Positions 189 to 35,689 of a DNA stretch of 35,689 nt are shown piece after piece. Numbering within the stretch: the stretch's first letter is position 1; every line of letters starts with the position of its first letter. A program made the position numbers and the translations under genes. Source of the stretch: Solemya velesiana gill symbiont (GTDB taxonomy: Bacteria; Pseudomonadota; Gammaproteobacteria; Chromatiales; Chromatiaceae); contig NZ_MPRJ01000020.1 in assembly GCF_002020805.1 (NCBI RefSeq), positions 1 through 35,689 on the forward strand. The letters run 5' to 3'. The notes under the pieces are model-generated. The model saw only the letters and a list, made by a program, of their open reading frames with translations, made no database searches and was not told the origin of the DNA.

Positions 189-2138
189 CTAATGCTTTTT
201 TATTATCTGAAGATATTCATTCTCACTCAATATTCGTACGCCTTTATCAGCAGCAGCAGATATCTTCTTCTCACCGACACTTTGCCCCGTAACAAGCATA
301 GTTGTCTTACTTGTAACTGACTTTCCAATTTTTGCACCAAGCATCTTAGCCTCAGACTCCATATCTGGACGCTTTCCATGCTCCATTGAACCAGTGAATA
401 CTATCAATTCTCCACTTAGTAAAAGGTCTGATTCTGAAACTACCCTTTTAGTTTCTTTAAGATTAAAGCCTAACTTGTAAATTAATTGAAATTCCTTTTC
501 TATACTCTTCAATCCCTCATGGATAGTCTCCGCACTTGTTTCAGCAAACCCATCTATCTTAATCAGATCCTCTACAGTCAGATTAAAAACATCGGCAACA
601 TAGTGATGTGCTAGCAATTTCTCGCAATTACCTTCTCCGAGTCTTGGAGCGCCAAATGCAGCTAAAAACCTCCAATCCTCCACCTCTAAAGTTCGGCTTG
701 CAAATAGTTGCTCAATCAAATTCTCCGAAGTCTTCTCCCCGAAGCCCATTTCCACTAACTTTTCAATACTTAGATCGTATATATCATGAATCAACCCAAT
801 TCCGGATTTGTATATTCTTTCAATAACTTTAGGACCAAACCCATCTACATTTCTTAGTGTTTTAAAAAAATGGATCATCGTGTTTTCTGCCTGGGCTGGG
901 CAATCTGTAGTATTAGGACAAAATAAGTTATCTCCATCCCAGACCACATGAGACTGACAGCTAGGACATTCTTCTGGTATATCTGGCTTCGCCCTTTCAA
1001 TAACGCTTTCTATTTTTGGTATGACTAAACCACTTCTCAGCAGCTCGACCAAAGAACCTTTACCAATGCCTTTAGACTTCACCATTCCATAATGATGAGC
1101 AGTTGCCCGGCTGATAGTAGCCCCACTTAACCTTGTTGGCTCCAATAGAGCGACAGGTGTCAACTTCCCTGTTCTTGAGGTTTGAGGGACAACCCCTCTT
1201 ACTACCACCTTTGCAATTTCTGCGTTGACCTTATACGCGATTTGCCATCTATGACTCTTCCTTGTTGAGCCCATATATTCCTTCAGCAAGCTATTGGTTG
1301 CTTCCGCAATTATTCCATCAACCTCGTAATCAACGGCATTCCAAATCTTATCTAGAATATTATTAAAATCACTCAAGAAAACTTTATAGCTTCCTACCCA
1401 ATCATCCAAGAGCTCAAAGGGATAGAAAACGCAAGCCTCATCATCTATAGCCTGCTGTATTCTCTCATCTACCTTCTTCTCCGCAATAATTGACGCCTGG
1501 ACATTTCTAGCGTTTTCAAAATAGCCACTTAATTTATCGTCAAAATAGCTCTTTCTAATTACAATTTCGCCAGCACCAGATCCTCTCACCCCACCTTTAG
1601 CAACCTTCAATCCCCTGTCAAATGCTCTAGTTATATCTTGCCCTCTAAAACCATCACCTCTTGTGTATAGCTTTTCTCCATTATCATAAGCGGCGTAGCC
1701 ATCTAGTTTAGGCGTTACTCTGATTTCCAAATCGTCCAAACTTGGATCTATATCGTTAGCCGCTTTTACAAGTCGATTTACCCATTTCTCAATTTCTTCA
1801 TAGGAGTATGCTTTTTCTGTAGAAAGCATTCTTACCGGCAATTCAACAGTTTTTGATTCAATGACTGGCTCTGGCTCGACTGAAGCCAAAAACGCACTAC
1901 CAGGATCCTGTGTTTCAAGCTCTTTAACATACAAAGAGTCATACTTAGCATCAGACATTACTGGAACACCAGCTCTATATGTCGCATTCGCAATTTGAAG
2001 AATTAGTGTTAGATCTTCTGGGGAAAATGCCCACAATCCTTCATCTGTACTTAAAAGTTTTTGTGCCTTTATTTTATCTACTTCAATGCCTGCCTGTTTA
2101 ATAGCAGCCATTTGAGCATCGGTTAACTTAATAGACAT
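189..2138 (-). CDS. Divergent NAD+-dependent DNA ligase, complete, probably horizontally acquired
   Basis: This 649-residue protein has the full LigA layout and should seal nicks in duplex DNA using NAD+. The adenylation lysine is K144 in KLDG. Other nucleotidyltransferase motifs are GEIVIR (190-195), DGII (274-277) and the lysine in AYKVNA (about 303). The OB-fold contains SRTGKLTPVALLEP (321-334). A four-cysteine zinc finger (C391, C394, C407, C413) is followed by a helix-hairpin-helix region and a C-terminal BRCT domain (about 573-649). The N-terminal NAD-binding subdomain is recognisable (PVMSDAKYDSLY). It is clearly not a copy of the neighbouring ligA: sequence and codon use differ, with AAA, AAT, ATT and TTA common. 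By hand count 1321-1380 is 18/60 G+C, against 36/60 in 2941-3000 of ligA. It starts with ATG at 2138, directly downstream of the truncated ligA and on the same strand. I infer acquisition by transfer and functional replacement of ligA. Confidence 0.9.
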   Translation of the reverse strand: MSIKLTDAQMAAIKQAGIEVDKIKAQKLLSTDEGLWAFSPEDLTLILQIANATYRAGVPVMSDAKYDSLYVKELETQDPGSAFLASVEPEPVIESKTVELPVRMLSTEKAYSYEEIEKWVNRLVKAANDIDPSLDDLEIRVTPKLDGYAAYDNGEKLYTRGDGFRGQDITRAFDRGLKVAKGGVRGSGAGEIVIRKSYFDDKLSGYFENARNVQASIIAEKKVDERIQQAIDDEACVFYPFELLDDWVGSYKVFLSDFNNILDKIWNAVDYEVDGIIAEATNSLLKEYMGSTRKSHRWQIAYKVNAEIAKVVVRGVVPQTSRTGKLTPVALLEPTRLSGATISRATAHHYGMVKSKGIGKGSLVELLRSGLVIPKIESVIERAKPDIPEECPSCQSHVVWDGDNLFCPNTTDCPAQAENTMIHFFKTLRNVDGFGPKVIERIYKSGIGLIHDIYDLSIEKLVEMGFGEKTSENLIEQLFASRTLEVEDWRFLAAFGAPRLGEGNCEKLLAHHYVADVFNLTVEDLIKIDGFAETSAETIHEGLKSIEKEFQLIYKLGFNLKETKRVVSESDLLLSGELIVFTGSMEHGKRPDMESEAKMLGAKIGKSVTSKTTMLVTGQSVGEKKISAAADKGVRILSENEYLQIIKKH

Positions 2139-2208
2139 AATTAGAAACCCACCTGAGCAGGCTAGAGCGATTACTTTTACTTGAAAAAATAATAAGTGTT
2201 CTCATTCA

Positions 2209-4265
<2,057 letters not shown>

Positions 4266-4340: not shown

Positions 4341-4438
4341 CTCCCTCTTCCCTGATTTAGGGAGGGGCTTGGGATTAGAGGGTGCAGCTTGTCTTGATTC
4401 ACCCTCACCCTAGCCCTCTCCCTCGAGGGAGAGGGAAC
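4341..4438. repeat. Palindromic CCCTCTCCC / GGGAGAGGG repeat
   Basis: Positions 4414-4435 are a perfect 22-bp palindrome with arms CCCTCTCCCTC and GAGGGAGAGGG, preceded by CACCCTCACCCTAG. This is the common gammaproteobacterial intergenic palindrome family. A related degenerate inverted repeat (CTCCCTCTTCCCT, then AGGGAGGGG) lies at 4342-4366. It could act as a transcript-end structure for smc but has no clear T-run. Confidence 0.65.
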
Positions 4439-4610
4439 CAAGCGAGTCTTCGACCTCGTGAAAGATTTTGGGACATCCAAGCCCCCAAAATCGACTCGGC
4501 CTTCGACAACCTATTAGTGCCCCGGACGTCCTGGTCAGCAGTGCGGCCTCACGGCTACCGGGGACTAACCGCCTCGGCTTTCAGCCTTCCATGGCGGTCA
4601 GCGAAAGATA
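4439..4610 (-). repeat. Structured dispersed repeat, full copy (three stem-loops)
   Basis: Positions 4439-4534 match 35594-35689 over 96 bp with a single difference (4482 C, 35637 T). Read on the minus strand, the unit begins just after the smc stop and folds into three stems. The first pairs CTGACCGCC (4601-4593) with GGCGGTTAG (4573-4565), nine pairs with one G-U. The second pairs CCCCGG (4563-4558) with CCGGGG (4525-4520) and encloses GCC-GTGA-GGC, a GNRA-type tetraloop. The third pairs GATTTTGGG with CCCAAAATC (4464-4472 and 4484-4492 on the plus strand), extended by CGAGTC/GACTCG. It may be a mobile repeat (MITE-like) or a structured RNA. I do not recognise a named family. Confidence 0.75.
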
Positions 4611-35593: not shown

Positions 35594-35689
35594 CAAGCGA
35601 GTCTTCGACCTCGTGAAAGATTTTGGGACATCCAAGTCCCCAAAATCGACTCGGCCTTCGACAACCTATTAGTGCCCCGGACGTCCTGG
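35594..35689 (-). repeat. Structured dispersed repeat, partial copy running off the window
   Basis: These 96 bp are identical to 4439-4534 except for one base (35637 T, 4482 C). The match continues to the last base of the window, so the rest of the unit lies outside. The GATTTTGGG/CCCAAAATC hairpin (35619-35627 and 35639-35647) and its CGAGTC/GACTCG extension are retained. It has the same orientation relative to dnaB as the first copy has to smc, but it lies upstream of dnaB rather than downstream of its gene. Confidence 0.85.

Follow-up and report, generated by a model that had tools for sequence, protein, structure and literature searches.

The window, a stretch of 35,689 nt that is one whole contig (G000:C40) of the window genome (G000), carries the same short sequence behind smc and again ahead of dnaB. 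The preliminary description of this locus left open whether such a pair reflects a mobile MITE-like unit or a selected RNA. The comparisons below point to mobile DNA, an element here called E, which probably belongs to neither class in the usual sense.

The repeat in the window

The 96-nt direct repeat is borne out: positions 4439–4534 recur at 35594–35689, 31,155 nt away, with one mismatch. Both copies adjoin essential genes, as had been noted; copy 1 starts 10 nt past the smc stop codon and copy 2 precedes the likely dnaB ATG by about 60 nt. The repeat is real, but 96 nt is not its unit. Copy 2 stops at the contig end, so that its length is set by the contig and not by biology, and the stretch is a mere fragment of a dispersed element of 280–303 bp. 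Similarly, the extent first given for copy 1 (4439–4610) is correct in placing it in the smc–zipA gap, but the element itself covers 4439–4603 and is followed by its target site. The features are as follows.

4439–4603, plus strand: copy 1 of element E in the smc–zipA gap, as assembled 165 of 288 nt; begins CAAG, ends GGTCAGCG; internal gap near 4537
4439–4603, minus strand: functional folded strand of copy 1 (the complement)
4455–4461, plus strand: CTCGTGA, left-end motif, invariant in 13/13 species-level sequences
4464–4492, minus strand: left-end hairpin (P9 in the fold of the complement), GATTTTGGGAC...CCCCAAAATC, from alignment and fold
4565–4601, minus strand: right-end hairpin beside the cut site (P1 in the fold of the complement), CTAACCGCC...GGCGGTCAG; 4/10 pairs show compensatory double changes between species
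4604–4607, plus strand: target motif NNNG (AAAG), which is CTTT^ on the complementary strand, with C at −4 of the cut; G in 133/135 distinct G001 copies and 19/19 in G000
35594–35689, plus strand: copy 2 of E, cut down to its left 96 nt by the contig end; some 60 nt ahead of the likely dnaB start

A BLAST search of G000 returned 46 matching places, which is above chance, and these resolve into a single element with the left part CAAGCGAGTCTTCGACCTCGTGAAAGATTTTGGGAC... and the right part ...GGGGACTAACCGCC...GGCGGTCAGCG. G000 is a MAG of 2.55 Mb and 84% completeness in which no complete copy of E is assembled; its intact element of 288 nt was pieced together from two halves. Nearly every short copy in this genome either has one arm of 96–104 nt or misses the last 97 nt, and the contigs that end inside E mostly carry 96–99 nt of it. 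Varying “internal deletions” with one arm of constant length are a typical outcome of short-read assembly for repeats. As the arms are about as long as the pieces of E carried at contig ends, the internal deletion of the window copy (165 versus 288 nt) is probably an assembly artefact, and for the same reason neither the 165-nt form nor its three-stem fold is trusted. That fold, noted in the preliminary description, is in any case no better than that of shuffled sequence (z = −0.8 and −0.5). A first reading of the deletions in G000 as true decay products was abandoned, the arm lengths most likely pointing to assembly joins.

Copy number, carriers and age

Intact E measures about 290 nt and has no gene of its own. 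Its left-end core occurs 380 times in G001 (Ca. Sedimenticola endophacoides, a lucinid clam symbiont of the same genus as G000) and 131 times in G020, a member of the same family. Most relatives have no such cores, and a reversed-pattern control gave zero in all genomes. E is found in symbionts of lucinids and of tubeworms; named carriers include Ca. Thiodiazotropha, the symbionts of Escarpia and Lamellibrachia and further gammaproteobacterial MAGs; in an even sample of Gammaproteobacteria, 8 of 369 genomes carry E. With hundreds of near-identical copies, the suspicion of a mobile unit is well founded.

The 0.99 Mb of G001 that was read contains 117 complete copies of 300 bp, of which 109 are 100% and 8 are 99% identical, values perhaps inflated by assembly within repeats since G001 and most other carrier genomes are MAGs. 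Fragments away from contig ends are almost absent from the same 0.99 Mb. Judged by this near-identity and scarcity of fragments, the expansion in G001 is very recent. The family is also old, as shown by a single divergent relic in G001 at 73% identity.

No autonomous copy of E was found by left-end to right-end spacing across all loci; long spacings were due to neighbouring copies, to an unrelated IS inside E, to an N gap or to a chance match of the right end. Phage and plasmid records gave no match, and IMG/VR holds E in two contigs, with a complete copy in one. This copy (L333, 424–712) sits in a 65-kb viral contig and is flanked by ATCG, which fits NNNG. Phages may thus carry E between hosts. 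A text search of the published genome paper on Ca. S. endophacoides gave no mention of such a repeat.

Exact insertion and the target rule

The 73 complete G001 copies examined first all share the same ends. The left flank of E is random, and so is the right flank in G001 except for a G at +4, i.e. four bases past the right end. This G was present in 78/78 copies of the first set and in 133 of 135 distinct copies of the larger one; a mixed set from other species and G000 gave 22/23, and G000 itself 19/19. Within NNNG there is a weak preference for AAGG or AATG. Read on the complementary strand, the arrangement is 5′-CNNN^CGCTAACC...CTTG^-3′, with C four places before the target cut. The 3′ end of E on this strand follows the same rule: C at −4 is invariant in 13/13 species-level sequences and the next three bases vary.

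Deletion of exactly 300 bp, with the first C counted as part of the element, restored, in 62 of 129 copies, ORFs that extend for at least 100 codons to either side, whereas the other two frames did so in just 23 and 31. FliG_M, the middle domain of FliG, aligns gap-free and residue for residue over an E junction, and matches to FlhA, AMP-ligase and DctM (TRAP transporter) also span E junctions. Likewise, the alignment to a paralogous empty site, in a repeat that E has not interrupted, runs gap-free through the junction. No target duplication was found, the left and right flanks of E being uncorrelated, and E has no terminal inverted repeats. As read from these junctions, E inserts exactly: target bases are neither duplicated nor lost, and no inverted repeats bound the element. 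The term MITE-like is therefore not applicable in its classical sense, which implies both inverted repeats and a target-site duplication.

Two of the interrupted genes in G001 are fliG and flhA, each split by a copy of E (L108 and L175), which suggests motility loss or polymorphism in the clam symbiont. Insertions into genes run 32 one way and 30 the other, and the idea that intact copies are self-splicing introns was rejected on this count.

A conserved fold on the complementary strand

Intact copies fold better as the bottom strand, i.e. the complement. The consensus energy is −56.5 kcal/mol for the bottom strand versus −44.1 kcal/mol for the top strand, and in 10 of 12 sequences z is lower for the bottom than for the top strand. 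Its predicted fold comprises nine helices with 24 doubly changed pairs, compared with 14.4 in shuffles and 5–11 in slid controls. The fold scores 81 cells versus 26.5, and its covariation score is 0.361, compared with 0.162 in shuffles and at most 0.10 in slid controls. Two conserved G–U pairs (2–42 and 5–39) are possible on the bottom strand only. These comparisons show a conserved, covarying fold predicted for the bottom strand, whose first hairpin is separated from the cut by a single base. The conserved pairing proposed earlier is thereby upheld in that covariation extends over the whole 290 nt, but in intact E it belongs to the other strand. The outcomes that had been named beforehand as refuting, a lack of further copies and of covariation or a match to a known rRNA, tRNA or named REP family, did not arise: copies are many, the covariation is clear and E matches nothing in Rfam.

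Orientation relative to replication

Of 158 G001 copies, 116 have the bottom strand on the G-rich side (p = 3e-9), as do 85 of 118 copies from other genomes (p = 2e-6). With one vote per locus, G001 gives 29/37; G000 alone, with its short flanks, gives a non-significant 12/21. In the closed genome of a family member (G004), the sign of the skew switches at dnaA and the G-rich strand is the one along which the rpo and rRNA operons read, so that the G-rich strand is taken as leading-strand sequence, that is, as the lagging-strand template. By this assignment, the bottom strand of E is shown to favour the lagging-strand template. Interrupted genes of either direction display the same bias (23/32 and 20/30), which hence tracks replication rather than transcription. 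This favours single-stranded DNA over a regulatory RNA as the form in which E acts, albeit the bias of about 72% is below what a strict strand rule would give.

A transposon that would move as single-stranded DNA

The data are best described by a non-autonomous mobile element that probably moves as single-stranded DNA. From the strand polarity, the exactness and the end rule observed in the copies we infer a folded single-stranded intermediate, a circle and an enzyme. The bottom strand would be exposed at the replication fork and fold; an enzyme acting in trans would then cut 3′ of CNNN at both ends via a 5′-phosphotyrosine link. Release of E, probably in the form of a single-stranded circle with CNNN^ once more at its joint, would be followed by joining into another exposed CNNN^ site. 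No copy seen encodes the enzyme; candidates are an HUH (Y1 or Y2) nuclease encoded elsewhere or a host type IA topoisomerase. Single-strand transposition on the lagging-strand template is established for IS608 and ISDra2 (PMC6006769). Among the points that weigh against this description, no enzyme is tied to E, and a conserved structure of nearly full length, G–U pairs included, would suit an RNA too.

Candidate enzymes and other explanations

The cut-site rule directs attention to host topoisomerase I (type IA, TopA), which could cut and rejoin folded E from the lagging-strand template, at CTTG^, to other CNNN^ sites, making E a transposon without a transposase. On single-stranded DNA, topoisomerase I enzymes favour cuts with a cytosine at −4 (PMC7587558). 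In E, C at −4 with nothing else fixed is found at the target (133/135) as well as at the element end (13/13), and an aberrant tandem junction of a 196-nt left part obeys it too. The carriers G000, G001, G020 and G037 each encode one type IA topoisomerase and no second one, so that the acting enzyme, if a topoisomerase, would be TopA itself; moreover, genes for Y1 transposases and reverse transcriptases are both absent from the two same-genus genomes. The literature searched, however, yielded no precedent, intermolecular joining would be required, and TopA occurs in nearly every genome, most of them without E, so that its presence discriminates nothing. TopA is accordingly entertained here as a tentative candidate that falls well short of probable.

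E could instead be a passenger of an IS200/IS605-type Y1 (HUH) transposase, in the manner of a palindrome-associated element or a REPIN. The expected chemistry is the same, with no target duplication, hairpins near the ends and a bias for the lagging-strand template, as in IS608 and ISDra2 (PMC6006769). Y1 enzymes choose their sites by means of 4-nt guides next to the hairpins (PMC6006769), but E fixes one of four target bases (133/135), and the space ahead of its first hairpin is too short for a guide. In addition, Y1_Tnp (PF01797), a model that does find its controls, has no match in G000 or G001, the two genomes of the same genus; matches are present in G005, G010, G020 and G037. A Y1 enzyme is thus considered unlikely.

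Less likely again is an IS91-family Y2 rolling-circle transposase, which would move E like the short IS801 fragments of Pseudomonas syringae. The geometry is shared, namely no inverted repeats, no target duplication and a tetranucleotide by the right end that resembles the first four bases. IS801 sites read GAAC, GGAC, CAAG or CGAC (PMC3189936), and E begins with CAAG. G001 also encodes an intact Y2 protein of 497 aa. Nevertheless, no E ends surround this gene, and the ends of its element, like those of the other Y2 elements that were read, show no similarity to E. Y2 genes do not track E either: none was found in G000 or G010, yet 10 of 32 E-free relatives have one. Finally, E does not use a tetranucleotide such as GAAC or CAAG, only one base of its site being fixed (NNNG).

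An RNA, whether a ribozyme or a retro-element, whose bottom-strand transcript inserts into single-stranded DNA would account for whole-length covariation and for conserved G–U pairs on one strand, and reverse splicing likewise gives exact insertion without duplication. Against it, neither G000 nor G001 contains a match to the reverse transcriptase model PF00078, E has no Rfam match, and gene insertions fall equally in both orientations, giving no sign of splicing. This explanation is judged improbable.

Selection for a regulatory RNA or a REP-like site at smc and dnaB, to which the position of both window copies beside essential genes had lent some appeal, is hardly credible: hundreds of copies lie at unrelated places, many of them inside genes that they disrupt in either orientation, and folding of the window copy is not in excess of shuffled sequence. 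That both copies share an orientation relative to the essential genes is meaningless at n = 2, and elsewhere up to about half of the copies lie within genes, in both orientations.

Comparison with known mobile elements

On the features tested, E is a new family that behaves most like single-strand transposons and stands outside IS200/IS605 and IS91. With IS200/IS605 and the non-autonomous palindrome-associated elements (IS608, ISDra2) it shares end hairpins, the preference for the lagging-strand template and the lack of target duplication and terminal inverted repeats. It differs in having no tnpA or tnpB, with no Y1 gene in the two same-genus genomes, in fixing one target base rather than recognising a target of 4–5 bases and in being structured over the whole element. 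REP/REPIN sequences mobilised by TnpA-REP (RAYT) are likewise high-copy, dispersed hairpin elements moved in trans, but they are tens of nt long compared with about 290 nt for E and lie only between genes, whereas E is often inside them; no RAYT gene was found in G000 or G001.

The miniature IS91-family fragments (IS801 derivatives of 229, 360 and 679 nt) resemble E in exact insertion, in one-strand geometry and in the right-end tetranucleotide resembling the first four bases. E is set apart by ends dissimilar to the Y2 elements seen, a target cut down to NNNG and a very high copy number. Bacterial MITEs such as MITEPsy1 are short, gene-free and dispersed like E, but as DDE-mobilised elements they possess the inverted repeats and target duplications that E lacks. 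HEARO/omega-RNA and the guide-RNA elements of IS110/IS1111 are also mobile units with a large structured nucleic acid; unlike them, E matches no Rfam family, was not seen with a nuclease or DEDD gene and lacks a sequence-guided target.

If single-strand movement of E is correct, Gammaproteobacteria harbour an unnamed, gene-free family of mobile DNA that recently came to make up about 4% of a clam symbiont genome. The many genes split by E, motility genes among them, would then afford a direct view of symbiont genome erosion. The route itself would be a rare one, with a cut-site rule unlike that of any transposase considered and like that of topoisomerase I, and it would raise the question whether an element can spread on a housekeeping enzyme alone. 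Repeats of this kind break and mis-join short-read assemblies, which is probably why they have been overlooked.

Rearranged copies and neighbouring features

Several loci carry altered copies. In the Escarpia symbiont, an IS with an apparent IS110-type transposase gene sits in the left-end hairpin of an E copy (L150, 2691–4350). A fold-back remnant in G001 (L330, 10444–10520) joins left-end positions 1–33 to an inverted 53–1 and has no right end. At L321 (7757–8448), two 196-nt left parts stand head to tail ahead of a full copy, and their joint fits CNNN^. Tandem arrays of E together with adjoining DNA occur at L212/L215 (G001:C143), at L071–L073 (G001:C104) and at L191, with units of 1198, 639 and 838 nt; one array includes part of an IS91-type transposase gene. 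The G001 arrays were discounted as evidence for a rolling circle, as ordinary recombination could yield them.

In the window, a second repeat-like palindrome, CCCTCACCCTAGCCCTCTCCCTCGAGGGAGAGGG, directly abuts E at about 4396–4436 and looks like a separate REP-type unit. Two neighbouring genes on the minus strand (189–2138 and 2206–3432) both match NAD-dependent DNA ligase. One product, of 649 aa, has a weak adenylation match plus OB, zinc, HHH and BRCT domains, and the other, of 408 aa, has N-terminal, adenylation and OB domains. The pair at 189–3432 looks like a partial tandem duplication or a split ligA.
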